Positions 35,586 through 64,000 of a stretch of 64,000 nucleotides of DNA are shown here, in pieces. The position numbers and the translations under genes were made by a program. The stretch is from Beijerinckiaceae bacterium. GTDB taxonomy: Bacteria > Pseudomonadota > Alphaproteobacteria > Rhizobiales > Beijerinckiaceae. Position 1 is the stretch's first letter. Each line of letters starts with the position of its first letter. The notes beneath the pieces were generated by a model that ran no database searches, had not been told where the DNA came from, and saw nothing but the letters and a program-made list of their open reading frames with translations. The stretch is taken from NCBI GenBank assembly GCA_947452455.1, contig CANGBX010000005.1, positions 62,001-126,000 of the forward strand, in the 5' to 3' direction.

Positions 35586-36617
35586 TCATCGCGCAATGAC
35601 ACGCTGAAAGGCGTCGATCACGGGCTTTGGTGTGGTCTTTGCTTTTTTCAGCAGTGCTTCTATCTCTTCATGGCCGACCGGGCTGTCATCAATGTCGAGC
35701 TTGCGCGCCTCGGCGCGATACTCCTCGTCTTGTGTCATCAGGAGAAATGCTTTTCGCAGCGCTGCAGCCCGATCAGCGGGAACAGCAGCGGGCGCTACAA
35801 AAGATTGCGCCATGAAAAAGGGGAGTTCTGCAAATTCGAGCAGGGCGCGGCTTGGCTCGTCGCGCACCAATTCATAGCCCGTTGGCACATCTGGCAAGAC
35901 GGGGTGGCGCGTGTGTCTGGCAAATTGCACGAGGGGTCGCACGGCTTTGCTCTCCCACAAATGGCGCTGCGTGGCTTGGATGGAAACAATCCCCATGAGC
36001 TGGCCATCGACCTCACGCGCGATCATGGCGAGCGATATTTTGGCTGTGCCGGCATAGCCGGAAATGGGCACAACATTGAGCCCCAGCACATCGCGCGCAA
36101 TCAGTGCAAAGGTGAGATTGGTTGAGCCTTGCTGGCTTGCTCCAAGCCGCGCTGTCATTTTGCCGGGGCGCAAATCATCAACCGAGAGCGCCGGATGATC
36201 CGCATTGACGAACAGCATGAAAGCATCATTGCGATAAGATGAGAGCGACCCCAGCCATGTGAGTGTGAGCGGATCAAAATGCACATTGGGATCGCCCATG
36301 AAAGCGAGTTGGGGAATCGCCCGCTCCATGGTCGCAATTTCAGTCCCATCGCGTGCGGCGCTATTGGCAATGCGATTGGCCCCCACCAATCCCCCGCCAC
36401 CGGGTTGATTGACGGTGACAATGCCGGGCTTGCCGGGGATGTAGCGGCCCATGTGGCGGGCCAATAAGCGGGCGACAATATCAGTGCCGCCACCTGCAGA
36501 TGAGCCAACAGTGAGGCGGATATTTTTGCCCGTGTAGAAAGCAGAAAGCCCTTCATCTGCCGCTTGTGCAGAGCCTGCAAAAAACAGACAGAGAAAGAGA
36601 AGGGCTCGTGGCGTCAT
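35586..36617 (-). CDS. Bug/TctC-type binding protein (Bug3)
   Basis: A 343-residue receptor with signal peptide MTPRALLFLCLFFAGSAQA, IRLTVGSSAGGGTDIVARL, ARHMGRYIPGKPGIVTVNQP and SGYAGTAKISLAMIAREVDG. The ATG overlaps the stop of the upstream LLM gene (36614-36617), so the two are coupled. Closest relatives in the window cannot be ranked by eye. Substrate unknown; the LLM linkage suggests an imported organic compound that is then oxidised. Confidence 0.87.
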   Translation of the reverse strand: MTPRALLFLCLFFAGSAQAADEGLSAFYTGKNIRLTVGSSAGGGTDIVARLLARHMGRYIPGKPGIVTVNQPGGGGLVGANRIANSAARDGTEIATMERAIPQLAFMGDPNVHFDPLTLTWLGSLSSYRNDAFMLFVNADHPALSVDDLRPGKMTARLGASQQGSTNLTFALIARDVLGLNVVPISGYAGTAKISLAMIAREVDGQLMGIVSIQATQRHLWESKAVRPLVQFARHTRHPVLPDVPTGYELVRDEPSRALLEFAELPFFMAQSFVAPAAVPADRAAALRKAFLLMTQDEEYRAEARKLDIDDSPVGHEEIEALLKKAKTTPKPVIDAFQRVIAR

Positions 36618-37645
36618 GTTGTCCCTGTCCTGAATGGTGCAATCACTTCTGTGCCGATGCGGCGCACATCATCTGTTCCCGCTGTCATTTTGAAGAGCAG
36701 CAGTTCGATTCCCATATCGCGGAAGCGCCCGATCTGGCGGCGGATGTCTTCTGGCCGCCCCATGCAGCCGCCCAATGTGGCAGGCAACATGCTGCGCTGG
36801 ATTTTTGCTGTGTCGGGATTTTGTTCATGCGCAATGATGCGCGCAATGCTGGCCTCAAGCGCATTTTGCATACTGTTGCCAAAACCGATGAACGGATTGA
36901 AACCGAAACGGATATGGCGACCCACAGCTTTCATGCGCTGACGCATATCGGCCATGGATTTTTCGAGCTCGCGCAGCAATTCATCTGTTCTGGTGATGTT
37001 GCGATCATAGGGCAGGAACCACCAGTCACCCGTCTCGGCAACCATTTTGCGCCCGCCCTCCGAATTGGCGGCGGTGAACATTTCAGGCGGTGCGGCATTG
37101 CGTGGTCGGAGCCGCAGTTCGAAATTTTCTGTCGGGAAAAATTCTCCGGGCATGGAGAATTTGTCATGTGTCCATGCGCCTTTGATGAAATTGATGAACT
37201 CGGTGGCGCGCGTGTAGCGCTGTAGCGCATTGTCCATCAGTGCGGTTCCACCAAACATCTGGAACTCGGCCTCATTGGCGCCTGTCACCAGATTGATCGC
37301 CATGCCGCCTTTGCAAATACGATCCAACGACATGGACAATTTGGCGATGACGGCTGGATGCCAGAGGCCCGGATGGACAGCCACCATGGAGCGCATGCGT
37401 TCAAGGCGCGAACCGATGGCGCCAGCCACCACCCATGTGGTGAGATCGGGGCCGAGATGGCGTTCTGCAAAGAGAATAATATCAAAGCCGGCTTTTTCAG
37501 CCTCGAGCATCATGTCGAGGCCGAATTCATATTGCTTGTCTTGACGTCCTTCCGGCAGCGGCCCATGCGCCTCTAGAACAGCTTGCGCAATTTCTGGCGA
37601 TCCAACGGTCACATGGCCATTTGTGCCATAGAGTCCAAATTGCAT
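36614..37645 (-). CDS. LLM flavin-dependent monooxygenase (LLM1)
   Basis: A 343-residue luciferase-like TIM-barrel protein: FDIILFAERHLGPDLTTWV, MRSMVAVHPGLWHPAVIAKL, SLDRICKGGMAINLVTGANEAE. The NLVTG element and overall spacing resemble the SsuD/RutA/NtaA group, FMNH2-dependent monooxygenases that cleave C-S or C-N bonds or open rings. It needs a flavin reductase, and none is recognisable nearby. It sits 13 nt after Bug4 and overlaps Bug3. Confidence 0.88.
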   Translation of the reverse strand: MQFGLYGTNGHVTVGSPEIAQAVLEAHGPLPEGRQDKQYEFGLDMMLEAEKAGFDIILFAERHLGPDLTTWVVAGAIGSRLERMRSMVAVHPGLWHPAVIAKLSMSLDRICKGGMAINLVTGANEAEFQMFGGTALMDNALQRYTRATEFINFIKGAWTHDKFSMPGEFFPTENFELRLRPRNAAPPEMFTAANSEGGRKMVAETGDWWFLPYDRNITRTDELLRELEKSMADMRQRMKAVGRHIRFGFNPFIGFGNSMQNALEASIARIIAHEQNPDTAKIQRSMLPATLGGCMGRPEDIRRQIGRFRDMGIELLLFKMTAGTDDVRRIGTEVIAPFRTGTT

Positions 37646-37658
37646 TTTCTTTTTTCCT

Positions 37659-38693
37659 TTAGTTTTGCTGATCGAGAATGGCCTTTACCCGCGCTTTGAT
37701 AGGAGCGGGTGCGGATTCCATTTTCGTCATGACGTCGCGCATGCGCGCGCCATCAAACCATCTGGTTTCAACATTGGTCTTTTCGGCTTCGGCTATAAAT
37801 TGCGGGTCGCGCATTGTGTCTTGAAAGGCTTTGCTCAAAAGAGCTGCGCGGTCTTGCGGCACATCTGGCGGGGCGAGGATGGGGCGGCCCAAAGCGAGCT
37901 GCGCAAACAGCAATTCGAGAGATTGGCGACCGACATCATCACTGGCGAGTTCCAATGCGTTGGGCACATCCTTATATTTGGGATGGCGCGTCAGGCCCAT
38001 TTGCAAAACGACATTCAGCTTGCCCTCGGCGAGTGGCTGGCCAAATTGCGCGCCCAGAGTGGAGACAAAGATTCCGCAGGAACCATGAAGCTCACCGCGC
38101 TCCATGGCAGTAGTGCGAATCTGCGCGCCACCCGAATAGCCGGGAATGGGTTTGAAGCGCGTGCCAATCACCGCATTCATGCCAACCGGGAATGTATGCG
38201 AATTAGAGCCCACACCCGCTGTGCCAATAATCACTTCGCGCGATTTCAAATCAGCGACAGATTTGATGCTGGTCGTATGCCAGACGGAGCATGTATCGGC
38301 TTCTTCATTCATATTGCCGATGAAGGTAAATTTGAGATTTTCAAATTTGGTGTGCTGGTCGCCAACGGCGGCAAGCAAGAATGTGCTCGACGCCAGAAGG
38401 CCCATCACCGTGCCGTCTTTCTTTGATAGGCCGTAGAGATTGTTTGCAGCCACAATGCCGCCGCCACCGGGCAGATATTGAACCGCGAAAGACGGGTTGC
38501 CTGGAATGTTGCGGCCGAAATGGCGCGTGAGAATGCGCGCATACATATCGTAGCCCCCGCCCGGTCCCGAGGCGACGAGGAAATTGATCGTCTTGTCAGC
38601 AAAGAAAGTGGCGGCGTCTTGTGCTTGGGCTTGTGCGCTTGAAAGACAGGCGAGGGCAAACAGCGCGGCGCGCGAACGGATTCCCCAAGACAT
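37659..38693 (-). CDS. Bug/TctC-type binding protein (Bug4)
   Basis: A 344-residue receptor: signal peptide ending AQAQA, INFLVASGPGGGYDMYARIL, TRHFGRNIPGNPSFAVQYLP, PGYSGGAQIRTTAMERGELHG. ATG 38693 follows GGGGAGG. It starts the Bug4-LLM1-Bug3-Bug2 run, divergent from the Ldh-type gene. Signature 'SVWHTTS' near residue 140 lies in the ligand cleft region in this family, but ligand contacts cannot be assigned. Confidence 0.87.
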   Translation of the reverse strand: MSWGIRSRAALFALACLSSAQAQAQDAATFFADKTINFLVASGPGGGYDMYARILTRHFGRNIPGNPSFAVQYLPGGGGIVAANNLYGLSKKDGTVMGLLASSTFLLAAVGDQHTKFENLKFTFIGNMNEEADTCSVWHTTSIKSVADLKSREVIIGTAGVGSNSHTFPVGMNAVIGTRFKPIPGYSGGAQIRTTAMERGELHGSCGIFVSTLGAQFGQPLAEGKLNVVLQMGLTRHPKYKDVPNALELASDDVGRQSLELLFAQLALGRPILAPPDVPQDRAALLSKAFQDTMRDPQFIAEAEKTNVETRWFDGARMRDVMTKMESAPAPIKARVKAILDQQN

Positions 38694-38818
38694 TTTTGAG
38701 CCTCCCCAGATTGTTTTTTTATAAGTCTGATTAAAGGCGTCCTCTGGCTTTTTGGCAAGACGCTTGTCAGCTCGGCGTGGATCGGCAAGATGCATTGAAC
38801 TTGCTCTGAGAGAAGCCC

Positions 38819-39874
38819 ATGTCCGCTCCGCCTAAAGTCGACCCCGTAAAACTTTTGCGCTTTGCCGCTGCGGCTTATGAAAAGGCGGGCCTTACGCGCG
38901 AGGATGCGCAGCTCTGCGCCGAATCTTTGGTGCAGGCGGATCTCTGCGGGCACCAATCACACGGCGTCTTGCGCCTGTCTTGGTATGTCGCGCGTTTGCA
39001 AGCGGGCGTATGTGATGCCAAAGCGCGCCCGAGCTTGGTGCTTGATGCGGGCGGGCTGGCTGTCATTGATGGCCATGAGGCCATGGGGCAGGTGGTTGCG
39101 GCCTTTGGCGCGCAAGAGGCGATTGCGCGCGCCAAACAGCATGGCATTGCCGCTGTCGCCATGCGCAATTCCAACCATTTCGGCACGGCCTTTTATTTCA
39201 CATTGATGGCGGCACGCGCGGGATGCATCGGCTTTCTGTCGACCAATGCCAGTCCTGCCATGGCGCCTTGGGGCGGGCGCCAAAAAGTGCTCGGCAATAA
39301 TCCGTTTTCATGGGCCTGTCCGGCCGGTCGTCACGCGCCCATGGTGCTGGATATGGCCAATACAGGCGTGGCGCGCGGCAAGATTTATCTCGCCAAGCAA
39401 AAGGGCCTGCCCATTCCGCTCGGTTGGGCGATCAATGCAGACGGCGCGCCCACCACAGATCCGGCGGAAGCGATTGAAGGCATCATTTTGCCCATGGCCG
39501 AGCATAAGGGTTATGCCATTGCCATGATGATGGACATGTTGTCGGGCGTTCTCACAGGCAGCGGTTTTTCGACCGATGTTTTCGGGCCCTATCAAGCCAA
39601 AAAGCGCAGCGGTGCCGGCCACTTTATGATCGCCATCAATATTGAAGCCATCCAGCCGCTTGCCGAGTTCAATACGCGCGTCGAAGAACTGATTGCGCGG
39701 ATGAAACAAGTGCCGCGCGCGGAAGGGTTTGACGACATCTATTATCCCGGCGAGATGGAAGCGCGCCAGGAAATTGAAAATCGTGCCAATGGTCTGGTTC
39801 TACCAGATGATACGCTGGCTGATCTGCAAAAGCTTGCCGATGAGATGGGCTTGAAAAAGCTTCTGCCGTTTTAA
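38819..39874 (+). CDS. Malate/L-lactate dehydrogenase-family oxidoreductase
   Basis: A 351-residue member of the Ldh/MdhC 'type II' dehydrogenases, NAD(P)-dependent enzymes that act on 2-oxo or 2-hydroxy acids (malate, lactate, ureidoglycolate, sulfolactate, imine acids). Seen: DLCGHQSHGVLRLSWY (catalytic His region), MRNSNHFGTAFYF, STNASPAMAPWGGRQKVLGNNP, and DVFGPYQAKKRSGAGHFM. It is the only plus-strand gene in this part of the cluster, divergent from Bug4, converging on TauD1. Confidence 0.9.
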   Translation: MSAPPKVDPVKLLRFAAAAYEKAGLTREDAQLCAESLVQADLCGHQSHGVLRLSWYVARLQAGVCDAKARPSLVLDAGGLAVIDGHEAMGQVVAAFGAQEAIARAKQHGIAAVAMRNSNHFGTAFYFTLMAARAGCIGFLSTNASPAMAPWGGRQKVLGNNPFSWACPAGRHAPMVLDMANTGVARGKIYLAKQKGLPIPLGWAINADGAPTTDPAEAIEGIILPMAEHKGYAIAMMMDMLSGVLTGSGFSTDVFGPYQAKKRSGAGHFMIAINIEAIQPLAEFNTRVEELIARMKQVPRAEGFDDIYYPGEMEARQEIENRANGLVLPDDTLADLQKLADEMGLKKLLPF

Positions 39875-39883
39875 GACGCGGCT

Positions 39884-40762
39884 TTACGCGTCGATAATCT
39901 CGCGCTCGCGGCATGTCGTGCGGCGCATATCGCGCCGATAGGTGCGATCATCAAAGGGCGTAGCGCGGTGCATGGTCGCCAGATTGTCCCAGATGAGAAT
40001 GTCCCCCAGCCGCCATTGATGCGCATAGACAAAGCGTGGCTGCGTGGCGAAAGCGATCAGCTCGTCAATCAGCGCGCGGCCTTTGTCTTCCGGCCAGCCG
40101 ACAATATTTTGCGCATGAGAGGCGAGATAAAGCGCCTTGCGGTTCGATGGCGCATGAAGATGCACGATGGCGTGGTGGGCAGGCGGGCGCGTCACACGCT
40201 CTTCTTCGGTCGGCTGAGGGCCGCCACCTAACACGCGGCTATACCAATAAGAATGTTCGACTTCGAGATGGGCGATCTCGGCCTTACGCGCGTCGGGGAG
40301 CGCATCCCATGCGGCGCGCATGTCGGTGAATTCCGTGTCGGCGCCTGCGGGCGGCACGAGATGGGCGGCGAGCATCGAATAGGTCGCGCGCACATCGTAA
40401 AAGCTCATATCCGTATGCCAGAGGCGATTGGCGCGCTTATAGGCGAGGCGGCGATCATCGTCTGAATAGATTTCGCCGACTTCATCGAGATTGCTCTGAT
40501 CGAGTATCTCGGGATGAGCGATGCGCATTTCTGTACCGGCAATTTTGGGCGCTTTGCCTCTTTGCAGCGGGCCAAACTTTGCGCTGAAGGCAATATGCTC
40601 GTCATTGGTGGGCGGCGTGTCATGGCCGATGACGCAGACCACATAGTCTGCTGCGATAGCCTTGATCTGCGCAAGAGTGGCGGCATCCATGGGCTTGCGA
40701 ATATCCACGCCGTGGATGCGTGCAGCATAAAGAGGATGAAGCTTTTCGATTTCAATCGTCAT
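39884..40762 (-). CDS. TauD/TfdA-type dioxygenase (TauD1)
   Basis: A 292-residue Fe(II)/2-oxoglutarate enzyme. Visible: the H-x-D facial-triad motif in RLWHTDMSFYDV, the distal His in NLATMHRATPFDD, and the Arg region TYRRDMRRTTC. It resembles 2,4-D/taurine dioxygenases, which cleave C-O or C-S bonds of small substrates. It lies 7 nt downstream of LLM2, the last gene of an SDR-LLM3-OYE-Bug5-LLM2-TauD1 run. Confidence 0.9.
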   Translation of the reverse strand: MTIEIEKLHPLYAARIHGVDIRKPMDAATLAQIKAIAADYVVCVIGHDTPPTNDEHIAFSAKFGPLQRGKAPKIAGTEMRIAHPEILDQSNLDEVGEIYSDDDRRLAYKRANRLWHTDMSFYDVRATYSMLAAHLVPPAGADTEFTDMRAAWDALPDARKAEIAHLEVEHSYWYSRVLGGGPQPTEEERVTRPPAHHAIVHLHAPSNRKALYLASHAQNIVGWPEDKGRALIDELIAFATQPRFVYAHQWRLGDILIWDNLATMHRATPFDDRTYRRDMRRTTCREREIIDA

Positions 40763-40769
40763 GGTCGCC

Positions 40770-41798
40770 TCAATGGGCCTGCTTGCGCAAAGGCCGGATA
40801 ATTTCATCTCTGATCTGGTGCAATTCGGAGATCAGGGGCGGGAATTTGAAGAGCAGCAATTCAATGCCCATCTCGCGAAAGGCTTCAATCTGGTCACGCA
40901 CCTGATCGGGTGTGCCGACACAGCCTGATTTCACGGCGGGCCCCACGCGGCTCATGATTTTGCGCATGTCGGTTTCGGCATTGGTCGGCGTGATGAGTTT
41001 CAATGCATGATCCATCGCAGCTTCGCGCGTGTTGCCAAAACAGATGAACGGGTTGAATGCAAATCGCACTTTGCGCCCCGTCTTGGCGGTTCGCTCGCGC
41101 ATGGCATCCATCGACACGCGCAGGCTTTCCATCACGGCTTTGGTGTCAGGTGCGTTTTTATCATAATCGAGAAACCACCAGTCGCCGACTTTCGCGATCA
41201 TATCGAGACCGCGCGGGCTACGGCTGGCGGTGAAAATTTCGGGCGGCTGCGGCGTGGCTGGCTTCAGCAAAAGTTGCGCACCCTCGACGTGATAGAACTG
41301 ACCCTTGTAGCTGAAGGGTGTCTCGCGCCACATGCCTTGCACGACATGCATGAACTCTTCGGCGCGAATATAGCGGTCATCATCACCCAGCATGGTCTCG
41401 CCGCCATACATGCGATGCTCTTCAATGTTCCATCCGGTGATAAGATTAAGACACATGCGCCCCGGAGACAGGCGGTCAAGAGTCGCTGCCATTTTGGCAA
41501 CAAGCTGCGGATGCCAAAGGCCCGGATGCACGGCAATCATTGAGCGGATGTGCGAGGTGAGGCTTGCGATGGCACTGCCCAGAATCCAGGCTTCCATATC
41601 AGCGCCCAGATGTCGCTCGGCGAAGAGAATAATGTCGAAGCCGGATTTGTCGGCTTCGATCAAGAGATCACGCGAGAGATTCCAGGCTGGATCAGTCACG
41701 CCAGAGGGCAGGGGCTTTTGCGCCCCTGCAACAGATGCTTCGATTTCGGGTGAGCCGACGGTGACATGGGGAACGGGCGCATAGAGTCCGAATTGCAT
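40770..41798 (-). CDS. LLM flavin-dependent monooxygenase (LLM2)
   Basis: A 342-residue paralogue of LLM1: begins MQFGLYAPVPHVTVGSPEIE like LLM1's MQFGLYGTNGHVTVGSPEIA, then FDIILFAERHLGADMEAWIL, CLNLITGWNIEEHRMYGG, and EMGIELLLFKFPP. RutA/SsuD-like pattern NLITGW. It lies 39 nt downstream of Bug5 and 7 nt upstream of TauD1. FMNH2 must come from an unlinked reductase. Duplicated from a common ancestor with LLM1. Confidence 0.88.
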   Translation of the reverse strand: MQFGLYAPVPHVTVGSPEIEASVAGAQKPLPSGVTDPAWNLSRDLLIEADKSGFDIILFAERHLGADMEAWILGSAIASLTSHIRSMIAVHPGLWHPQLVAKMAATLDRLSPGRMCLNLITGWNIEEHRMYGGETMLGDDDRYIRAEEFMHVVQGMWRETPFSYKGQFYHVEGAQLLLKPATPQPPEIFTASRSPRGLDMIAKVGDWWFLDYDKNAPDTKAVMESLRVSMDAMRERTAKTGRKVRFAFNPFICFGNTREAAMDHALKLITPTNAETDMRKIMSRVGPAVKSGCVGTPDQVRDQIEAFREMGIELLLFKFPPLISELHQIRDEIIRPLRKQAH

Positions 41799-41837
41799 GT
41801 CAAACCTCTTGTTCTTTTTCTTTGACCCTCACCGAAA

Positions 41838-42869
41838 TTATTGCCCCTGATAAATCCTCCGCAAACGCTCGATCACGCGCGGGGGCGTTTGATAGAGGCG
41901 ATTGATATCGGCTTGCAACTGTTCGCCCGAGCGCGGATTGTCGATCTGGAGCCCGAGCTTTTCCGCATCCGAGCGGAATTCAGCATCCTTGATCATTTCC
42001 ATAAAGGCTTTGCGCACTGCAGCCAGTCGGTCCGCTGGAATATCTGGCGGCATGAGGAAGGGGCGGCCGAGTGTGAGCGGGCCGTAGGCTGCTTCAAACA
42101 GCAGCTTGTCTTCTTCATTCTTCACCAGATCAGGCCCATAGGGGACATTCTTCAACTCGGCTTCTTTGATCGGGCCATATTGGAGAAGAATATTGATCTG
42201 CTTGTCCTTCAACCAATTTTGCTTGGTCGAGGTCAGCGAGCTCCAGAAGGTCGTGCCATAAGTGTCGAGCTCGCCGCGCTCAATCGCAATATAGGCTTCA
42301 TTCTGTCCCGGATAGCCGGCGATCACTTTGATCTTTGTGCCGAGCAATTCATTCAACAGACGCGAATAGAAAGCGGGCGCCGAATTGATGCCGGATGCGC
42401 CCGCCGTCATTTCAAATTTCTTGGCATCTTCGATGGTTTTGAATTTCGATGCATGCCAGCTGATCAGCAGGCCTGTTTCAAGCGAGGGCGTGCCAATCCA
42501 GTTGAGGCGCGTGGCATCATAATCGGCTTCTTTCGTGCCAAACAGCGGCTCGAGCGGCGCATTGTTCATGACAATGCCCATCACCGATCCGTCGCGTGCG
42601 GCTGAGCTGAAGAGATGTTTGCTCGCCACAATGCCGCCAGCGCCCGGCATATTGCGCGGCACGACATTGGGGTGGCCCGGAATATGTTTGATGATGTGGC
42701 GGCCCACGGTGCGCGCCAAAGCATCATAGCCGCCGCCATTGCCGGAGCTGATGATCATGGAAATGTTTTTATTTGTGTAGAATTCAGCGACATCAGCTTT
42801 CGCTGAATGGACGCTCACTGCTGCGCTCGCACATGCGGCCAAAACTAAGGCACGGATTGCAACTGCCAT
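41838..42869 (-). CDS. Bug/TctC-type binding protein (Bug5)
   Basis: A 343-residue receptor with signal peptide ending HSAKA, SMIISSGNGGGYDALARTV, GRHIIKHIPGHPNVVPRNMP, IAGYPGQNEAYIAIERGELD. Precedes LLM2 by 39 nt in the same order as Bug4-LLM1 and Bug10-LLM4. It lies 90 nt downstream of the OYE gene. Confidence 0.87.
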   Translation of the reverse strand: MAVAIRALVLAACASAAVSVHSAKADVAEFYTNKNISMIISSGNGGGYDALARTVGRHIIKHIPGHPNVVPRNMPGAGGIVASKHLFSSAARDGSVMGIVMNNAPLEPLFGTKEADYDATRLNWIGTPSLETGLLISWHASKFKTIEDAKKFEMTAGASGINSAPAFYSRLLNELLGTKIKVIAGYPGQNEAYIAIERGELDTYGTTFWSSLTSTKQNWLKDKQINILLQYGPIKEAELKNVPYGPDLVKNEEDKLLFEAAYGPLTLGRPFLMPPDIPADRLAAVRKAFMEMIKDAEFRSDAEKLGLQIDNPRSGEQLQADINRLYQTPPRVIERLRRIYQGQ

Positions 42870-42959
42870 GATTCAACCTCCCAAAATTCTTATGTCTTTT
42901 TTGGGAAGATAATGACACAGCGGTGAGGCGTGGCAAGGGCTTAAAGAAGTTGTTCTTCT

Positions 42960-44075
42960 TTATGTGAAGGCGCGCGTTTCTTTCGCACCCGGCCAGCTGC
43001 CAGCTTTGACGCGCTGATATTGCGGCGGGATGGTGAAAGGATGGCCGAGCGCTTCGGCTGCGTGCCAGCCCCAATTGGAATCATCCAAAAATGCCCGCGC
43101 CAAGGCGACTTGGTCGACGCCGCCTGTGCTCACAACGTCTTCGGCATGTTTAGGCCCGGCAATAAATCCAACGGTGCGTGTCACAAGCCCTGTTTCGCGC
43201 TTGATGCGCGCAGCGCGTTCGACATTAAAGCCCGGGCCAAGGGCAGGGCGACCGCCAGGCACAATATTGCCCGAACTCACGCAGACATAATCAAAGCCGT
43301 GGTCACGCAGAGCTTTTGCGACTGCAATGGCATCTTCAACCTGCAAGCCTTCGTCGAGAAAGTCTGTGCTGTTGATGCGTGCACCCAGTGCAATATGGGA
43401 AGGTGCTGAATCGCGCACCGCTTTCGCCACAGCAACAGCAAAGCGCATGCGTTTTTCTGGCGAACCGCCCCAATCATCTGTGCGTTGGTTTGAAACAGGC
43501 GAGAGGAATTGATGGATCAGATAGCCATGCGCTGCATGGATTTCGATCACATCAAGACCTGCGCGCACAGCGCGTTTGGCTGCTTCGCCAAAGCCATTGA
43601 TAATATCTTCGATCTGCGCATTGGTGAGTTCGAGGGGTGCTGCGCCATCTTTCTCGAACGCAATCGGAGAGGGTGCAACCGTTTGCCAAGCGCCTTTTTC
43701 AGGCGTCAGTGCCGCGCCGCGATCCCATGGATAAGGTGTGGAGGCTTTGCGTCCAGCATGGCAGAGCTGAATGCCGAGTTTGAAACCGGGCAGCGCGAAT
43801 TTCTTGGCAATGGCAATAACGCGCGCCAGCGCGTCTTCATTGGCTTGCGAATAAAGCCCCAGACAGCCGGGCGAAATGCGCCCCTCACGCGTGACGGCAG
43901 TTGCTTCCATCACGGCAAGGCCTGCACCCGACATTCCAAAGCGGCTTAAATGTTGGATGTGGAAATCCGAGGCCGAGCCGTCATCAGCCGAATACATACA
44001 CATGGGCGAGATGGCGATGCGATTTGGCACTTCAACGGGGCCGATTTTGAGCGGCGTAAAAAGCTGCGATGCCAA
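42960..44075 (-). CDS. OYE-family NADH:flavin oxidoreductase (YqjM-like)
   Basis: A 371-residue FMN protein with AISPMCMYSADDG carrying the Cys of YqjM-type enzymes (about residue 26), GIQLCHAGRKAS, the catalytic HAAHG in IEIHAAHGYLIHQFLSP, and RTVGFIAGPKHAEDVV. It would reduce activated C=C bonds with NAD(P)H. In this run it lies between LLM3 and Bug5, consistent with a catabolic pathway on unsaturated or aromatic compounds. Confidence 0.92.
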   Translation of the reverse strand: MASQLFTPLKIGPVEVPNRIAISPMCMYSADDGSASDFHIQHLSRFGMSGAGLAVMEATAVTREGRISPGCLGLYSQANEDALARVIAIAKKFALPGFKLGIQLCHAGRKASTPYPWDRGAALTPEKGAWQTVAPSPIAFEKDGAAPLELTNAQIEDIINGFGEAAKRAVRAGLDVIEIHAAHGYLIHQFLSPVSNQRTDDWGGSPEKRMRFAVAVAKAVRDSAPSHIALGARINSTDFLDEGLQVEDAIAVAKALRDHGFDYVCVSSGNIVPGGRPALGPGFNVERAARIKRETGLVTRTVGFIAGPKHAEDVVSTGGVDQVALARAFLDDSNWGWHAAEALGHPFTIPPQYQRVKAGSWPGAKETRAFT

Positions 44076-44114
44076 ATCTCTATTCCTTCATCTCGTCCAT
44101 ATGTGCGCCGAAAC

Positions 44115-45290
44115 TTATTCGGCGGCGATGCTCGGCAGTGTTGCCTTGAGGCCCGGCAGATCCTTGATCTGCGGCAAGACTTCCTTGGCGAAGAGGCGGA
44201 TGTTCGAGACAGTCCGCTTATGATCCAAGAAGCCTGCCTGCATCATCATCAACAGATGATCAAAGCCGCCAATGCGCTCATATTCGAGCTTGATTTGCGC
44301 GGCCACCTGATCGGGCGTGCCATACATGACAACACCCAGATCGCGCTGCTCTTCGAGCGAGACTTGGCGAAGCGCATCATTGGTGCGTGAGCGCACGTCA
44401 GCGCCGCGCAGACCCGCGACATTGGCCGCAATCGGTGCATAGCCCGGAGGGTTACGGAACTGCGGCTCCGACTTGGCTTTGAGATACCATGTCAGTTCAC
44501 GTGCACCAGCTTCCGCATCGGCTTCATTGTCGGCGACATAGACCAGCGGCATGAAGGCAAGACCGCCACCACCCGGCTGACCATTGTCGCGATAGGCGCT
44601 GCGATAAGCATCAAACAGCATCCGCACCTTGTCGTAAGGCTGCAGGAAGGTCGCAAAAATATAACCCTTCGAGGCGGCGCGACGCACAGATTCCACGTCG
44701 CTCGAGCCCGTCACCCAGACCGGCGGGTGGGGCGTCTGATAGGGGCGCGGCCACAGATTGATCGCACGCTTATGGGTGAACTTGCCTTCGAAATTGAACG
44801 GGCCGTCTGTTGTCGTCCAAGCTTTGACGCAGAGATCCACGCCTTCCCACAGACGCTCGAGCGTCTCGGTCGGATTGGCATTGGAGGCGAAGACTTCATA
44901 AGGCACGCCGCGCACAAAGCCCGCGTGCACGCGGCCGCGCGAGATGCAATCGATCATCGCCATTTCTTCGGCAATGCGAAGCGGGTCTTGGCGATTGGCA
45001 ATCGGATTGCCCAGAATGCACAGCTGCGCATTTTTGGTCTGGCGCGCGAGAATGGCCAGAGACAAAGGCGCGCAAGTGTCGATGCAGGTCGCGGTCTGGT
45101 GATGTTCATTCACCATCAGGTCGAGGCCCGCTTCATCAGCGATCACATGCTCGTCGAGATAGCGATTGTAGAGATCAGCGCCGATCTTCGGGTCAAAATG
45201 CTTGTTCGAGAGATTGACGCGAATGCTGCTCAGCGAATCCATCGGTGGCAGATTGGGGTAGGGCATTTCCGTGAAGTACCAAGCGCGCAT
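44115..45290 (-). CDS. LLM flavin-dependent oxidoreductase (LLM3)
   Basis: A 391-residue luciferase-like protein of a different subgroup from LLM1/2/4: MRAWYFTEMPYPNLPPMDSL, then LDEHVIADEAGLDLMVNEHH, CILGNPIANRQDPLRIAEE and GRVHAGFVRGVPYEVFASN. The last motif is the usual G-R-x-x-x-G-F-x-R-G. It is 75 nt downstream of the SDR gene and 39 nt before the OYE gene. Confidence 0.88.
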   Translation of the reverse strand: MRAWYFTEMPYPNLPPMDSLSSIRVNLSNKHFDPKIGADLYNRYLDEHVIADEAGLDLMVNEHHQTATCIDTCAPLSLAILARQTKNAQLCILGNPIANRQDPLRIAEEMAMIDCISRGRVHAGFVRGVPYEVFASNANPTETLERLWEGVDLCVKAWTTTDGPFNFEGKFTHKRAINLWPRPYQTPHPPVWVTGSSDVESVRRAASKGYIFATFLQPYDKVRMLFDAYRSAYRDNGQPGGGGLAFMPLVYVADNEADAEAGARELTWYLKAKSEPQFRNPPGYAPIAANVAGLRGADVRSRTNDALRQVSLEEQRDLGVVMYGTPDQVAAQIKLEYERIGGFDHLLMMMQAGFLDHKRTVSNIRLFAKEVLPQIKDLPGLKATLPSIAAE

Positions 45291-45365
45291 GTTCTTTGCT
45301 TTCTTTGGTTCAACATCAATGGGTTGAGTTTGGATGTTTCCCAGGCGTCCGGCAAGACGGGTGCA

Positions 45366-46148
45366 TTATTGGGGCACCATGATCACGCCGCCATTCATGG
45401 CAACCGCCTGTCCTGTCATGTAGGAGGCGTCCGCGCTGAAGAGGAAGGCGGCGAGCCCCGCCATATCCTCTGGATAGCCGATGCGGCCGAGCGGAATATT
45501 CTTCTGGCCGCGCGCGATCAATTCCTCAGGCGTTGTATTTTCAAGAGGTTGAGCTGTCATGGAGACGCCGGGGATGATCGTGTTGCAGCGGACATTGTGT
45601 TTGGCCCATTCGAGCGACACGGTCTTGGTAAGCGAGACAATGGCGGCTTTCGAGCAGGCATAATTGGCGCCATTGACGGCGCCCTCCAGCGCGCGACCTG
45701 ACGCAATATTGATAATGACGCCACGCTTATTGGCGATCATGGCCGGCCCAAAGGCATGGATGATGTGGAAGGGCGCGGTAATATTGACCTGCAAAGTGCG
45801 GGCAAAAGTTTCCGGCGACATGTCGAGCACGCTGGCGCGCGGATAGATGCTGGCATTGTTGATGATGCCATAAGGCGTGCCATAGGCCTTCACGCTGGCG
45901 GCCACGGACTCGTCAATGGCGGCGCCCGAAGCCAGATCGACTTTGAAGAAAGTGGCCTCGCCACCGGCGGCCCGCACTTGCGCTTCGGTCTCGCGGCCTG
46001 CGGCTTCATTGATGTCCCAGAGGGAAATGCGCGCGCCCATGCGCGCCAGACGTTTGCAGAAAGCGCGGCCAAAGCCGCCGCCGCCCCCGGTGATGACGAT
46101 GTGGTCGCCCGGACGCAGCCCGTCACGCGCAATGCCGTCTTCGTACAT
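45366..46148 (-). CDS. Short-chain dehydrogenase/reductase (SDR)
   Basis: A 260-residue classical SDR: TGGGGGFGRAFCKRLARMG (TGxxxGxG), IINNASIYPRAS (NNAS variant), catalytic Y-x-x-x-K as YACSK in NGANYACSKAAIVSL, and PGVSMTAQPLENTTPE. An alcohol or ketone substrate in the same pathway as the downstream genes is likely. First gene of the six-gene minus-strand run; starts divergent from the hydrolase at 46471. Confidence 0.92.
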   Translation of the reverse strand: MYEDGIARDGLRPGDHIVITGGGGGFGRAFCKRLARMGARISLWDINEAAGRETEAQVRAAGGEATFFKVDLASGAAIDESVAASVKAYGTPYGIINNASIYPRASVLDMSPETFARTLQVNITAPFHIIHAFGPAMIANKRGVIINIASGRALEGAVNGANYACSKAAIVSLTKTVSLEWAKHNVRCNTIIPGVSMTAQPLENTTPEELIARGQKNIPLGRIGYPEDMAGLAAFLFSADASYMTGQAVAMNGGVIMVPQ

Positions 46149-52354: not shown

Positions 52355-52384
52355 GATGAAAACTCCCCCTGTTTTCGTCTCAGA

Positions 52385-57314: not shown

Positions 57315-57316
57315 AC

Positions 57317-57901: not shown

Positions 57902-57940
57902 TATCTCATTCGGGTTGCATTGCCATCGAGGGGGAATGCC

Positions 57941-58939: not shown

Positions 58940-58963
58940 TGAAATGGGCGGTTCTTCAACTCG

Positions 58964-59230: not shown

Positions 59231-59397
59231 GGGGTCTCTCTAATAATTGAAATTAAATCGTATATATACAGAAATGACTATAACATAAAATATGATTTTT
59301 ATAAAAATTTTGATAATGATTTCCTTTCATTTCGCCATTAGCGGCCGCGCCCGAAACGGGCCGGAATTGTTTTGTTCTTTTCAAATTTGGACTGTCA

Positions 59398-60123
59398 TTG
59401 CGTAAAGAAAATTTCGTCATCACGCTGGATGAGCAAGGGCCGCGCTTTGCTGCCTTTCGGTCAGCTAATCCTCATTTGCAATTGCACGTCGCGCGCGGTG
59501 TTCGCGGGCGTGACCTGTCGCGTGAGCAACGCCTGTCGCAGGGGCTGATCACCCGCGAGGCGTTGGATGCGGGCGCGGTAAGCGATGGTGAGGTTGGTTG
59601 TGCAGCCAGTCATGTGGCGCTTTGGCGTGAATCTGCGCGGCTCGACCGGCCCTTTCTCATTCTAGAAGATGATGTCATCACCCATCCGCAGATTGAGGCG
59701 CAGATTGCGCGAATTGATTTTCCCTTTGATGTGATTTTCTTCGGCGTGAATACAGATACGCTTTTGGCCACGCTTTCGCCTGAAGGTGTGCGCGAATTTT
59801 CTTCCTTTGTAGATCGTTATCCGCCGCCAGCGCGCATTGCGCAGATTTTGAAACAGACCGATCTCTCGCGCATGGCTTTTCGGCCCGTGCTCAATGCCTT
59901 TGGCTTATGTTGCTATCTGGTCTCGCCACAGGGAGCTGCCAAACTTGCACAGCGTATTCTTCCCTTGCGTCTGGATGGTGTTCAGATTCCCGATTTGAAA
60001 AGTGCCAGCGTGCGCGGCACCAGCATTGATCGGCGCATGAATGCGCTTTTTCCGGATTTGCGCGCCTTTGTCATGCGCCCCTTTCTCGCCTGGACGCCCA
60101 ATACGGATTCGAGCACAAGATGA
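59398..60123 (+). CDS. GT25-like glycosyltransferase (GT25a)
   Basis: A 241-residue protein of GT25 (LPS glycosyltransferase) pattern: VGCAASHVALWRESARLDRPFLILEDDV with the LEDD motif, DFPFDVIFFGVNTDTL, CCYLVSPQGAAKLAQRI. It starts with TTG 59398. Probably adds a sugar to a surface glycan. Overlaps GT25b by 4 nt. The AT-rich stretch 59231-59397 upstream may hold its promoter. Confidence 0.85.
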   Translation: MRKENFVITLDEQGPRFAAFRSANPHLQLHVARGVRGRDLSREQRLSQGLITREALDAGAVSDGEVGCAASHVALWRESARLDRPFLILEDDVITHPQIEAQIARIDFPFDVIFFGVNTDTLLATLSPEGVREFSSFVDRYPPPARIAQILKQTDLSRMAFRPVLNAFGLCCYLVSPQGAAKLAQRILPLRLDGVQIPDLKSASVRGTSIDRRMNALFPDLRAFVMRPFLAWTPNTDSSTR

Positions 60124-60935
60124 AATGTTTCTTTATCAATCTCGATCAGGCTGAAGAGCGGCGGCAGGCACTCGAGCAGAATTTTGCCCGTTTCGCGTCA
60201 CCGGATTGGACACTGGAGCGATTTTGCGCGGTTGATACAAAGACCGTGCAAGCCCGGAAGATCACGGGACATCTGCGCCCGACCGAGATCGCCTGCGGCA
60301 TCAGCCATCTTGATCTGATGCGCGCGAAGAGAGAAGAGGCTGCTCCTTTTCTGATCCTCGAAGATGATGCTTTGTTCGGCCCTCATTCTTGTACCGCGCT
60401 GGGTGAGGCTGTTGCTCGTCTCGAACAGCAAGATACGTGGGATATTCTCTTCCCCGATCTTTGCATCGTGCAGATCGGATTGATGGCCGAGCTTCTCGCT
60501 TTGCGCCGACAGCTGATGCGTGAGGGGCAGTTCCGTCTTCTGGATCCAAGCCGCTGGGCTTTTTCATCCGCCACATCTTATATTCTGCACCCGCGTGCGA
60601 TTCCGAAAATCCTTTCGGCCCAGCCGAAAGATTGGACCTTGCCCTATGATCTTTTGCTGCGTCAGCTTGTGCAGCAAGGGCGCTTGCGTGCGCGCTGTAT
60701 TTTTCCCTTTGCACTGTCGCTGGAAGAAACATCAAACGCCTCTACCATCACACCGGGCGATGAAACGCGCACGGGCTTCATCTGGTATTTGTTTCGTCGC
60801 ATGATTTGGCGTGACGGCAATTTCGAAGAACATCTGGCCGATGTTGAAAATGTCTCTCAAGAATTGAGCGCCGAAACATGGGCCCATGCACGGCTTTGGG
60901 CGGCCATGGCGGATCCGAGCTTTCTGCCCAAATGA
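60120..60935 (+). CDS. GT25-like glycosyltransferase (GT25b)
   Basis: A 271-residue paralogue: MKCFFINLDQAEERRQALEQNFARF, GCGISHLDLMRAKREEA, PFLILEDDALFGPHSC with EDD, and the C-terminal MIWRDGNFEEHLADVENVSQ. ATG overlaps the GT25a stop (ATGA). Active site looks intact. Confidence 0.86.
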   Translation: MKCFFINLDQAEERRQALEQNFARFASPDWTLERFCAVDTKTVQARKITGHLRPTEIACGISHLDLMRAKREEAAPFLILEDDALFGPHSCTALGEAVARLEQQDTWDILFPDLCIVQIGLMAELLALRRQLMREGQFRLLDPSRWAFSSATSYILHPRAIPKILSAQPKDWTLPYDLLLRQLVQQGRLRARCIFPFALSLEETSNASTITPGDETRTGFIWYLFRRMIWRDGNFEEHLADVENVSQELSAETWAHARLWAAMADPSFLPK

Positions 60936-61033
60936 AAATGCTTGTGCGGAGAGCGAGAAGCGCTTTTGACCCATGATGGGGCGCTCGCTACGATGGGGCA
61001 TATTTCATTTCTCTGTTCAGTGATTCGATTTTC

Positions 61034-61783
61034 ATGAAATGTTTTTTTCTGTCTGCCGATGGCGATCCGCAGGCTTGGGCGCAAACGCAAGAGTCTTTTC
61101 TCAACCATGCGCCAGCCCATTGGGAAATCGACTTTTTCCGGCTCAATCCCGAGAAGGATTTGGTGCACGCTTGGCGTGATCTGGTGTTGGCGCAACAGGC
61201 GCTGGGCCAAGCCTTTATGCTCGCCACACCTGGGGCGCGGTTTGGCCAGCATACCTGCACCACCATCGACAATAGCGTCGCGCATCTGGAAAAGAGCGGC
61301 GGATTTGATTTGCTCTTCAGTGATCTGCGGCTTTTGCAGGCGGGCGCTATGGCAGATCTCTTCGTGCTGCGCCGCCAATTGGCAGAGCATGGTCGCACGC
61401 GCCTCATTGATCCCCGTCCTTTGGTGTTTGAAGGGCCGGGCGCCTGCGTCATTCATCCGCGCGCTTGTGCGCATGTGGGCGCAATTGCATCAGCAGCATC
61501 CTTGCGAGAACTCATCGAGGGGGCACTTTGCCAGCCGGTGCGCGAAGGCGGGCTGATGGCGCGCTTCGTCTTTCCTTTTGCCACCATGGTGTCGAGCGGG
61601 GAGGATGGGCTTGTGCCGCAAGAGCCAGAGGCGCGCAGCGCGATCATCGGCGATATTTATCGCCGCATGGTCTGGCGTGATGGTGGCTGCGAGCCCGAGC
61701 TTGCGCCCTTGGCGCTCATGTCAAAAGGCCTCAGCACGGAAGCCAAGGCCTTTGCTATTCTCTGGGCTGCAATGGCAGATTAA
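61034..61783 (+). CDS. GT25-like paralogue lacking EDD (GT25c)
   Basis: A 249-residue paralogue of GT25b: MKCFFLSADGDPQAWAQTQE, then AFMLATPGARFGQHTC where GT25b has LILEDDALFGPHSC, and LLFSDLRLLQAGAMADLFVL matches LFPDLCIVQIGLMAELLAL. The EDD metal/donor motif is replaced by ATPG, so it is probably not catalytic. C-terminus RMVWRDGGCEPELAPLALM is kept. Stop shares TTAA with the convergent small gene. Confidence 0.83.
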   Translation: MKCFFLSADGDPQAWAQTQESFLNHAPAHWEIDFFRLNPEKDLVHAWRDLVLAQQALGQAFMLATPGARFGQHTCTTIDNSVAHLEKSGGFDLLFSDLRLLQAGAMADLFVLRRQLAEHGRTRLIDPRPLVFEGPGACVIHPRACAHVGAIASAASLRELIEGALCQPVREGGLMARFVFPFATMVSSGEDGLVPQEPEARSAIIGDIYRRMVWRDGGCEPELAPLALMSKGLSTEAKAFAILWAAMAD

Positions 61784-62010
61784 GCGCGGAGCCTACCGCT
61801 GGGCTTTTGTCCGGCCATGGCCATTTCGCGCGCGAAAGCAAATTCTTCCGGCGTGAGGCGCGCATTGGCGGCCAGGCCATTATCGACGCGGACTTGGCGG
61901 GCATCAGCACGCAAGCGGGCAATCTCTTCCGCATATTGCTCTACAAGCGCACGCAATTGGCGCACTTCCATGGCAAGATCGTCGTCGCTCACCTGTGCCG
62001 TATCCTTCAA
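61780..62010 (-). CDS. Small coiled-coil hypothetical protein
   Basis: A 76-residue acidic/basic protein with a heptad-like region (AMEVRQLRALVEQYAEEIARL) and RLTPEEFAFAREMAMAGQK. No family recognised. Overlaps the end of GT25c by 4 nt (TTAA). Confidence 0.55.
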   Translation of the reverse strand: MKDTAQVSDDDLAMEVRQLRALVEQYAEEIARLRADARQVRVDNGLAANARLTPEEFAFAREMAMAGQKPSGRLRA

Positions 62011-62165
62011 GTCGGTCGGTCGATCCCGAATCGGATCAATAACAACAGAATATCACATCCGGCCTCGACCCGCGCCAAAGCCCGGATCGTGTCTAGGGAT
62101 GCCATTTTCTGACGTAGCGGCATCCCCATCCGTGCTAGACAGGCGCATTGCGGATGGAGAGAAGA

Positions 62166-62384
62166 ATGGCGAAAGAACAGATCAGCCCTGAAGTGCTCGC
62201 GCTTTTGCGAATCAATGGCCTCATCATGGACGGGCTCATCAAGTCCGGCGCTGTCGAGGCCAAATGGTTTGTCGAAAATCTTGATCGGCTGTCGCGAGAA
62301 GAGCAGCATGGCCTGACGCGCGCGATCATCACCGGCATGGCCGATGCCTATCGCGCGGCCCATCAAGTGCCGCCGACCAAATAG
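62166..62384 (+). CDS. Small hypothetical protein
   Basis: A 72-residue protein, MAKEQISPEVLALLRINGL, helical throughout. ATG 62166 follows GGAGAGAAG. Function unknown. Stops 3 nt before the LLM4 stop (convergent). Confidence 0.55.
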   Translation: MAKEQISPEVLALLRINGLIMDGLIKSGAVEAKWFVENLDRLSREEQHGLTRAIITGMADAYRAAHQVPPTK

Positions 62385-62387
62385 GCT

Positions 62388-63380
62388 TTAGCTCAACTGA
62401 AGATCGGGCAGAATTTTCTGCCCGAATTCTTCCAAGCCGTCATGCATCGGCCAGAAATGCAGCATGAATAGGCTGATGCCCATCTCTTCATAGCGCTTCA
62501 TGCGCTCGACAATGGTTTTGGGCGTGCCGATGAGATTGGCGCCCACACCTGACACACCAACCTGCGCCTTGCCCGCTTCGCGCACATGCTCTGCGGCTTT
62601 GGCTTGCGCCTCTTCTTCCGTCTCGCCGATGATGACAACCGCATTGATGCCGTAATTCATCTTGCGGCCATAGGCTTTCACGCGCTCTTCCATCATCGCG
62701 GTTTCTGTTGCGATGCGCTTGAGGCTCGCCTCATAATTGGCGTGGTCGCGGTCATAATTGACAAACCATGTGTCGCATTCTTGCGCGACGACATTCATGC
62801 CATCTTCCGCGCGGCTGGCCGCAAAGAAAGGCGGGTGGGGCGCGATGACAGAGCGGGTGGGCATTTTGCCGCCCTGCATTTTGTAAAAATCGCCATCGAG
62901 CGTGAATTCATCTTCCGTCCAGAGACCTTTCATCAAGCGGATGAATTCATGCATCTGCTGATAGCGGCCATCGTCGGATTCAATCCAGCGGCCATACATA
63001 TTATGTTCAGCCGGGCGCGTGCCGTTGACGATGTTCACGCAAAAACGCCCGCCCGAAATGCGATCCAGACTGGCGCCCAGTTTGGCGGCAATGCGCGGAT
63101 CGAAAATGCCCGGATGAACAGCCGCCATCAACCGCATTTTTTTCACGACAGGCGCAAGAGCGGCAGCAAAAATCCAGGAATCGAGATCAGGCCCGAACCA
63201 GCGTTGCGCGATGAGCGTGATGTCAAAGCCCAGCTCTTCGGCGCGGTTCAGCACTTTCACCGCATATTCGAAACTGGCATCCGGCCCGCCGCCATTTGTC
63301 GTCAGCGCATCCAGCATGGGCTTGGTGACGGGATCGGGGCGGATCGTTTGCGGGGCTGGGCACCAGATGCCGAGTTTCAT
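62388..63380 (-). CDS. LLM flavin-dependent monooxygenase (LLM4)
   Basis: A 330-residue SsuD/RutA-like protein: MKLGIWCPAPQTIRPDPVTK, FDITLIAQRWFGPDLDSWIF, LDRISGGRFCVNIVNGTRPAEHNMYG, and EMGISLFMLHFWPMHDGLE. The INxVNG replaces the NLVTG of LLM1/2 and RutA. ATG 63380 has AAGGAAG upstream. It is 28 nt downstream of Bug10. Confidence 0.88.
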   Translation of the reverse strand: MKLGIWCPAPQTIRPDPVTKPMLDALTTNGGGPDASFEYAVKVLNRAEELGFDITLIAQRWFGPDLDSWIFAAALAPVVKKMRLMAAVHPGIFDPRIAAKLGASLDRISGGRFCVNIVNGTRPAEHNMYGRWIESDDGRYQQMHEFIRLMKGLWTEDEFTLDGDFYKMQGGKMPTRSVIAPHPPFFAASRAEDGMNVVAQECDTWFVNYDRDHANYEASLKRIATETAMMEERVKAYGRKMNYGINAVVIIGETEEEAQAKAAEHVREAGKAQVGVSGVGANLIGTPKTIVERMKRYEEMGISLFMLHFWPMHDGLEEFGQKILPDLQLS

Positions 63381-63408
63381 TTTCTTGCTTCCTTGCGTCG
63401 CTCTGGTT

Positions 63409-64000
63409 TTAGTTCTTGGCACCGGCATACATAATGTCACGCAGCTTGTCCTTTTGCGTCTGATCAAAGGCGACGAGCTGTTTCACTACGCCAAGCGCTT
63501 GCTCGGCATTGAGCGGCGTCAATTCCAGATTGAGCTTGGTGGCTTCGGCGACAAATTCAGGATCGCGTGCAGTGGCCATGAAGGCGTCTTGCAAAGCCTT
63601 GGCGCGGTCTTCCGGAATGGCGGGCGGGGCCGCATAGGGGCGCGCGATCAGATAGGGGATTTCTGCCAGCTCGATCATTTTGGTCGCATTGGCATTTTTC
63701 GACAATTCCAACGCGGTCGGCACATTGGGCAACTCGGGATGGCGTGACTTGCGCGCAAATTGCATCAAGACCTGCATCTTGCCAGCAGGATTTGTCCAAG
63801 CTGGTCGTGCCACTTTGGTCGAGACATAATTGACGAATTGTCCGTCGAGCTCGCCATTCTCAACCGCCAGACCAATCGTATTGGAATCCTGATAGCCCGG
63901 AACCACGCGAATGTTGAGGCCCAGCACATCTTTCAGCAGCACCGTAATGTCATGGTCGGTGGCCCCCGCACTGGTTACGCCAATGGCGACTTGCGGCCCA
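63409..64000 (-). CDS. Bug/TctC-type binding protein (Bug10, 5' end outside window)
   Basis: The C-terminal ~197 residues of a Bug receptor; the frame is open to the right edge (GPQVAIGVTSAGATDHDITV) and the signal peptide lies outside. Visible VPGYQDSNTIGLAVENGELDG, LPNVPTALELSKNANATK. It precedes LLM4 by 28 nt, the third Bug-then-LLM pair in the window. Similar to Bug3 in the central part by eye (RKSRHPELPNVPT, cf. RHTRHPVLPDVPT). Confidence 0.88.
   Translation of the reverse strand, partial: GPQVAIGVTSAGATDHDITVLLKDVLGLNIRVVPGYQDSNTIGLAVENGELDGQFVNYVSTKVARPAWTNPAGKMQVLMQFARKSRHPELPNVPTALELSKNANATKMIELAEIPYLIARPYAAPPAIPEDRAKALQDAFMATARDPEFVAEATKLNLELTPLNAEQALGVVKQLVAFDQTQKDKLRDIMYAGAKN

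Follow-up and report, generated by a model that had tools for sequence, protein, structure and literature searches.

In ssuEADCB, the sulfur-scavenging alkanesulfonate operon of Escherichia coli, the receptor gene ssuA lies directly 5' of, and overlaps by 4 nt, ssuD, the gene for a luciferase-like monooxygenase (LLM) that depends on reduced flavin mononucleotide (FMNH2). We found a similar layout, with another class of receptor, in a 64,000-nt stretch of the genome of a Beijerinckiaceae bacterium: three times in this stretch (the window), a gene for a Bug receptor is followed by an LLM gene. Bug (TctC) proteins are receptors of the tripartite tricarboxylate transporter (TTT) type, and their known ligands are mostly carboxylates. 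The genome (G000) comprises 3.05 Mb on 13 contigs, and the window is its C5:62001-126000; positions given below without a contig are window positions. On balance, we think that the Bug-LLM pair is a real two-gene catabolic cassette that has been put together several times and whose membrane port is encoded elsewhere.

Most orphan Bug receptors lack a known ligand, as stated in the available parts of PMC5994714 and PMC11452294. The available parts of PMC5994714 tie such receptors to transporters (ABC transporters included), kinases and regulators and contain no mention of a recurrent enzyme partner. A Bug gene that recurs with one enzyme type would allow receptor and enzyme to be screened against the same compounds, and would make the ligand and port of orphan TTT receptors testable pair by pair.

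Three Bug-LLM pairs in the window

An earlier reading of the window from its sequence (the sequence-only reading) had described three pairs of common order, with gaps of 13, 39 and 28 nt. The coordinates confirm this. All three pairs are on the minus strand, with the Bug gene first and the LLM gene second.

Bug4, 37659..38795, minus strand: divergent TctC/Bug-type periplasmic receptor, heading a Bug4-LLM1-Bug3-Bug2 run
LLM1, 36614..37645, minus strand: SfnG/SsuD-type flavin monooxygenase (PF00296, 133 bits)
Bug3, 35586..36617, minus strand: Bug receptor (PF03401, 35 bits), overlapping LLM1 by 4 nt (ATGA)
Bug2, 34480..35589, minus strand: Bug receptor (PF03401, 34 bits), overlapping Bug3 by 4 nt (ATGA)
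Bug5, 41838..42869, minus strand: receptor 5' of LLM2
LLM2, 40770..41798, minus strand: SfnG/SsuD-type flavin monooxygenase (PF00296, 186 bits)
TauD1, 39884..40807, minus strand: TauD/TfdA-type dioxygenase after LLM2 (PF02668, 196 bits)
Bug10, 63409..64000, minus strand: receptor 5' of LLM4, running off the window end (full ORF C5:125409-126461)
LLM4, 62388..63380, minus strand: SfnG/SsuD-type flavin monooxygenase (PF00296, 171 bits)

The gaps are those between the Bug4 stop (37659) and the LLM1 ATG (37645; 13 nt), the Bug5 stop (41838) and the LLM2 ATG (41798; 39 nt), and the Bug10 stop (63409) and the LLM4 ATG (63380; 28 nt). For LLM4 we used the conserved MKLG start; the program's TTG at 63467 would overlap Bug10. 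The true start of Bug4 is probably an ATG 34 codons inside the open reading frame (ORF) (MSWGIRSR...), followed by a stretch that, judged by eye, resembles a signal peptide. The added partners that the sequence-only reading had named are also present, Bug3 and Bug2 behind LLM1 and TauD1 behind LLM2, and an in-frame ATG at 40762 in TauD1 would give a gap of 7 nt to LLM2. On the contig, the third pair stands in the order Bug11, thiamine pyrophosphate (TPP) enzyme, Bug10, LLM4. The same order, judged by gene lengths, occurs in another member of the genus (G067, locus L134), with LLM4 82% and Bug10 88% identical to those of the window. There is a fourth Bug-LLM pair in the genome, outside the window on contig C3.

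Identity of the receptors and monooxygenases

The window receptors are assigned to the TTT/Bug (TctC) family by profile and by predicted fold. The Pfam TctC model (cut-off 27 bits) matched Bug10, complete in the contig, above the cut-off (37 bits), Bug5 below it (22.8 bits), and it missed Bug4, for which no Pfam family scored at E 0.001. Bug4 gave a weak TAXI match and aligned with other Bugs at 29-36% identity and with the classic Bug6 at 20%. A profile that includes Bug4 and Bug5 (A1) matched 11 solved Bug/TctC sequences, the best being 4x9t (E 7e-20). Bug5, the one receptor that was modeled, gave an AlphaFold model with a pLDDT (predicted local distance difference test) of 89. Its 17 best fold matches in the PDB were TphC/TBP, a TctC protein, BugD, Bug27, MatC, 2dvz and 5oei, the last two of which we take to be members of the Bug/TctC family.

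Divergent receptors of this kind form a subfamily with 99 copies in the 3.05 Mb, typically with ORFs of 340-400 aa and the motif FYxGKxI...GGGYDxYAR...IPGxP. The Pfam TctC model placed 68 of 96 listed places above its cut-off, compared to 119 Bug places overall. Because many divergent Bugs miss this cut-off, surveys with classic queries may undercount them. Strong divergent-Bug matches among 149 genomes of the family were found in the genome itself, in five other members of the genus with listed matches, and in one further genome.

LLM1, LLM2 and LLM4 match Bac_luciferase. The sequence-only reading had called them SsuD/RutA-like, which holds at the level of the superfamily, but the closest NCBIfam model is SfnG (TIGR04021; 153, 173 and 185 bits for LLM1, LLM2 and LLM4), followed by SsuD (TIGR03565; 84, 118 and 159 bits) and, more weakly, RutA (TIGR03612; 53, 82 and 101 bits). 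None of the three proteins reaches the equivalog cut-offs (382.95, 518 and 498 bits, respectively), which rules out that they are true SfnG, SsuD or RutA. In alignments, the positions of SsuD Arg226 and His228, which we take to be sulfonate-binding residues, are Asn and Phe in LLM1 and LLM2 and Asn and Val in LLM4. These changes also argue against true SsuD, and alkanesulfonates are therefore not the expected substrates. The model of LLM2 (pLDDT 81) matched 3rao, SfnG (8t0u), MsuD and SsuD. The closest named relative found for LLM2 was a protein 95% identical, from a Beijerinckiaceae metagenome-assembled genome (locus L044).

Bug-LLM pairs are in excess in the genome

We compared the pairs with the background of Bug and LLM genes in the genome. 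There were 119 Bug places, 99 of them matching the divergent profile at full or near full length and 20 classic, and there were 10 LLM genes. With up to 450 nt allowed between profile ends, all four SfnG/SsuD-type LLM genes had a Bug directly upstream, and none of the six other LLM genes did. A Bug was upstream of 1/8 TauD, 2/16 Amidohydro_2 and 1/29 short-chain dehydrogenase/reductase (SDR) genes. The proportion was thus 4/10 for LLM genes compared to 4/53 for the control classes (P = 0.017).

The neighbors of Bug genes gave a similar result. We surveyed 105 of the 119 Bug places, with ORFs chosen by length and without a gene finder. A same-strand, non-Bug ORF lay within 150 nt downstream of 55 of them, and 4 of these 55 were LLM genes. 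This is approximately 20-fold more than the ~0.2 expected from 10 LLM genes and a gene number of 2500-3200 that was assumed, not counted (hypergeometric P = 1.5e-5 to 4e-5). Forty-two of the 51 non-LLM partners were checked with Pfam (40 in the survey, plus FrsA and TauD2 of the window), and nine were left unannotated. Thirty-three of the 42 fell into 29 different families, and nine gave no match at E 1e-12. Among the 46 annotated partners, LLM was the commonest single class, with four members; every other class had at most two. The families include amidohydrolase, flavin adenine dinucleotide (FAD) monooxygenase, SDR, enoyl-CoA hydratase, FAA hydrolase, glyoxalase-type, aldolase II, ornithine cyclodeaminase-type, PrpF, aconitase and thiolase proteins, and others. 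The habit of a Bug gene standing before another gene is broad, and the LLM pair is the commonest case of it that we saw.

Two further arrangements were seen. An LLM gene at C2:221170-221991 (L009), flanked by Bugs on both sides, contains a single in-frame TAG; it is a decayed gene or an assembly error. Receptors like Bug5 adjoin a flavoenzyme of the acyl-CoA-dehydrogenase type both at C1:33253 in this genome and at a locus of a relative (L045), a further recurring link between a Bug and an enzyme. The two enzymes are 61% identical, and homologues stand at the matching place in two more loci (L051, L065).

Pairing in related genomes

Related loci came from a scan of a species-genome collection (49 loci), to which genomes of the genus and family and the genome itself were added. 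The 84 matches to the LLM group were reduced to 68 by removing near-copies. Of the 68, 22 were preceded by a Bug at a distance of no more than 150 nt, 44 were not, and 2 were too near a contig end to be assessed. The pairs had an orientation bias. Among the 66 assessable genes, a Bug was directly upstream of 22 and directly downstream of 4, with one gene having both.

An excess of the pair in other genomes, expected if the sequence-only reading was right, was found relative to one control and was borderline relative to the other. With one unpaired member added, a Bug was directly upstream in 22/67 group genes, or 16/61 without the genome itself and its near-twin L044. Compared to this last number, the genus had upstream Bugs at 0/28 TauD genes (Fisher P = 0.002) and at 1/21 other LLM genes with room upstream (P = 0.06; 1/27 and P = 0.02 when the six unpaired LLM genes of the genome are included). 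These P values are optimistic, as the rows are related by descent. That any LLM draws a Bug finds no support in the 1/21 in the genus, at that P of 0.06, or in the 0/6 in the genome.

The LLM control started from 28 loci. Two had no usable match, and three of the remaining 26 were group members, of which two lacked 400 nt of room upstream and one joined the group as unpaired; two of the other 23 had no room, giving 21. The TauD control started from 30 loci, two of them from the genome itself, and two had no room. Distances of up to 250 nt between profile ends were accepted in the controls, and no group row had a distance in the range of 150 to 250 nt. If genes lacking room are kept, the numbers become 22/69 (16/63) for the group, 1/23 for other LLM genes and 0/30 for TauD. 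The room filter weakened the control within the genus.

Of the 149 family genomes, eight had the LLM group (at least 300 bits), seven had strong divergent-Bug matches, and six had both; the Bug scan scored the 14 best candidates per genome and gives presence, not numbers. In three relatives of LLM2 that have no adjacent Bug (L045, L051, L065), the same strand carries a relative of Bug5 (74-78% identical) ~3 kb upstream. Between the two are two SDR genes and the gene for the acyl-CoA-dehydrogenase-type enzyme, annotated in L045 and present as homologues in the others. For LLM2 the linkage to the Bug is kept even where the two genes are not adjacent. Two other members of the genus (G151, 5.3 Mb; G158, 4.7 Mb) had 74 and 56 luciferase-family matches, respectively, compared to 10 here.

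The pairs contain different Bug lineages

The three pairs of the window are not copies of one recent segmental duplication, a possibility that the sequence-only reading had itself raised. LLM1, LLM2 and LLM4 are 31-46% identical to each other and their partner Bugs 32-33%, and the pairs take different places in the trees. On a carefully built LLM tree of 74 rows (one of the six outgroup rows, out_L088, is a fragment of a group member), the paired state needs eight changes, at least seven of them forced by the starred branches, compared to 18.9 in shuffles. On a quick Bug tree of 154 rows, made without bootstrap, the 22 partners need seven changes, at least six of them forced. The four partner Bugs of the genome are not each other's nearest Bugs within it; they rank 7 to 80 of 93.

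One version of the pair is long-lived. Pairs of the C3 type are found as bare pairs at 13 Hyphomicrobiales loci, in Xanthobacteraceae, Beijerinckiaceae and elsewhere in the order, with identities of 58-94% for the LLM and 53-89% for the Bug. Tree distances of Bug and LLM are correlated (r = 0.81 for 17 thinned pairs, a value reached by 0 of 5000 permutations). Partners can also differ: two LLMs that are 62-65% identical to LLM2 (L056, L077) have Bugs only 37-38% identical to Bug5.

We found no third gene common to the pairs. The 22 pairs sit in 21 loci; in the 18 that were compared (all but L007, L042 and L044), no family beyond Bug and LLM occurred in more than four, comparing proteins of at least 150 aa at E 1e-20 and recording families in at least three loci. 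The families in four of the 18 loci include a second, classic Bug and ABC-type ATPases. A larger unit with a third shared gene is thus rejected, and the pair persists without other widely common neighbors.

Membrane ports and the proposed mechanism

There are six TctA places in the genome and none is near the four pairs: contig C5 lacks them, and the pair on C3 has none closer than 60 kb. None of the four receptors has a TctA beside it, and a complete TctCBA transporter is therefore absent from these pairs; the search covered this genome and not the loci of relatives. Two of the six TctA places are TctA-TctB fusions, at C3:168387-170465 (L096, 692 aa) and C4:230157-232217 (L098, 686 aa). The listed Bug closest to the C3 fusion is 1.4 kb away, on the opposite strand; for the C4 fusion this distance exceeds 7 kb. 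ATP-binding cassette (ABC) receptor genes of the NMT1/THI5 type were found near Bug-LLM pairs at three loci.

L043:13231-15921 (C5:133231-135921): NMT1/THI5-type ABC receptor gene
L077:1031-2918: NMT1/THI5-type ABC receptor gene
L075:558-1613: NMT1/THI5-type ABC receptor gene

The three loci have an ATPase in two cases and a permease in one. In L075 the ABC gene immediately precedes the Bug, whereas in L077 the distance is ~3 kb. Bug10 has a full set of receptor, ATPase and permease ~7 kb upstream, with an opposite-strand gene between this set and the pair. TctAB is therefore not the sole candidate port. Most neighbor genes in the relatives are unannotated, so that genes of this type could be missed elsewhere.

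From the gene arrangement we infer a common compound for the two proteins, and Bug and LLM are probably made from one transcript. In the periplasm, the orphan TTT-type receptor would bind this small and probably carboxylated compound, and a membrane component encoded outside the cassette (TctAB, or perhaps an ABC system at some loci) would bring it inside. The FMNH2-dependent SfnG/SsuD-type monooxygenase would then begin its oxidation; the bond attacked may be C-S, C-N or an activated C-C bond.

A more speculative extension, which we regard as rather doubtful, is that the ~100 orphan divergent Bugs feed a few shared membrane ports, each Bug being bundled with the enzyme for its ligand. If so, the two TctA-TctB fusions on C3 and C4, which have no neighboring receptor, would be candidate shared ports, Bug-LLM would be the bundle most often rebuilt, and gaining two genes would suffice for the uptake and attack of a new compound.

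Alternative explanations

Several observations weigh against a dedicated Bug-LLM cassette. Two-thirds of the assessable group LLM genes (44/66) have no Bug directly upstream, and the link lies with one SfnG-like subclade of Hyphomicrobiales. In two relatives of LLM2 (L047, L048) the place of the Bug is taken by a Rieske oxygenase gene, homologues of which are also upstream in L049, L053 and L066. There was no flavin-reductase match near the pairs of the genome, where PF01613 has a single place, on C12 (SsuE-type reductases were not searched for), and NMT1-type ABC genes near three of 18 paired loci offer a candidate port other than TctAB. Some partners of Bug genes are not catabolic (a radical-SAM protein, a LysR regulator, MBOAT, MFS and ABC proteins, and PriA). 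One alternative is that there is no special unit and that abundant orphan Bugs adjoin catabolic genes, some LLM genes included, as a general habit. With 119 Bug places in 3.05 Mb, 51 of 55 close partners other than LLM, and 29 families among 33 of the 42 that were checked, the habit is broad. Nine of the 16 Amidohydro_2 places adjoin a Bug when all orientations are counted, the contrast with other LLM genes of the genus is weak (P = 0.06, once the genome itself is left out), and Bug genes near catabolic operons are known from the available parts of PMC5812351. We nevertheless think this explanation unlikely, though it deserves serious weight, because a general habit does not account for LLM being the commonest annotated partner at ~20 times expectation, nor for the rarity of an upstream Bug at the unpaired LLM genes of the genome (0/6), at SDR genes (1/29) and at TauD genes (0/28 in the genus, 1/8 in the genome). 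One pair type has also been long-lived, with nothing else widely conserved beside it. The claim of a functional unit in the sequence-only reading is therefore supported by the excess in the genome, by the orientation (22 upstream compared to 4 downstream) and by the retention of the two genes in one lineage, but it applies to that subclade, and the LLM is one Bug partner among several.

The number of origins bears on whether the cassette was put together repeatedly. A single Bug-LLM pair at the root of the LLM clade, duplicated and often lost, would make the repeats old paralogues. Such a history is consistent with the 46-48% identity of LLM1 and the C3-type relatives to LLM2 and with the correlated Bug and LLM distances, and the tree counts do not separate gains from losses. 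It is difficult to reconcile with the scattered ranks of the four partner Bugs, with the loci whose LLMs resemble LLM2 and whose Bugs do not resemble Bug5 to the same extent, and with the at least six label changes forced on the Bug tree, and we consider it improbable. Repeated assembly from different Bugs and related LLMs fits best, and gain rather than loss would then explain the tree counts. Least probable, in our view, is that the Bug serves in sensing and not in uptake, and reports the compound to a regulator controlling the LLM operon. The TctC homologue BctC works in signaling in Bordetella, according to the available parts of PMC5812351, and the lack of a TctA place near the four pairs would agree with such a role. 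The co-directional, nearly abutting position of Bug and LLM is rather that of a pathway gene, and among the 18 paired loci every further family was limited to four or fewer (kinases and regulators were not looked for by name).

Other features of the window

Three genes lie directly 5' of Bug5.

OYE, 42960-44075, minus strand: gene of the old yellow enzyme type
LLM3, 44115-45290, minus strand: LLM of a different subgroup, with no Bug adjoining
SDR, 45366-46148, minus strand: short-chain dehydrogenase/reductase

The gaps in this stretch from Bug5 to SDR (42960..46148) are 90, 39 and 75 nt, and the three genes are possibly on one transcript with Bug5. At 59398-61783, within the catabolic stretch, there are three neighboring same-strand ORFs between Bug9 and LLM4, two of which match family 25 glycosyltransferase. 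Upstream of the region are an integrase-like gene just below the Pfam cut-off (31449-32714), a tRNA-Lys gene (24861-24936) and a tmRNA gene (4362-4700), which we take to be of the permuted type from the program's mark. These three are a possible island boundary.

Comparison with known systems

The sequence-only reading knew of no described system named for this pair. A search of the open-access literature found no paper describing it, but the order of receptor and LLM gene has long been known from ssuA-ssuD. Like that system, the pairs have a receptor gene directly 5' of an LLM gene, LLM1, LLM2 and LLM4 belong to the SsuD superfamily, and LLM2 is predicted to have the SsuD fold. Unlike it, they have an orphan TTT receptor in place of the ABC-type SsuA, and no counterparts of the SsuC permease, SsuB ATPase and SsuE reductase were found directly beside them among the annotated neighbors in the window. 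Among named enzymes, SfnG, the dimethylsulfone monooxygenase, is nearest in NCBIfam; in PDB sequence and fold comparisons it comes directly behind the unnamed 3rao. It shares the Asn at the position of SsuD Arg226. The window LLMs differ from it in reaching 153-185 bits against a cut-off of 383 and, for LLM2, in a fold match at ~25% identity.

On the receptor side, terephthalate dioxygenase is not an LLM enzyme. TphC, the terephthalate receptor, is a Bug-fold receptor serving a catabolic pathway, as described in the available parts of PMC8556258, and is among the top structural matches of the Bug5 model, at ~19% identity. The Bugs of Bordetella and the 434 TctC homologues of Rhodoplanes sp. 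Z2-YC6860 (PMC5994714, available parts) are likewise many receptors, mostly orphans, with few membrane units, as are the 119 receptor and 6 TctA places here. The genome described here differs in that 99 of its 119 receptors belong to the divergent subfamily, often below the Pfam cut-off. The Bug-LLM pair is the known receptor-plus-enzyme arrangement of the ssuAD kind with another receptor class.

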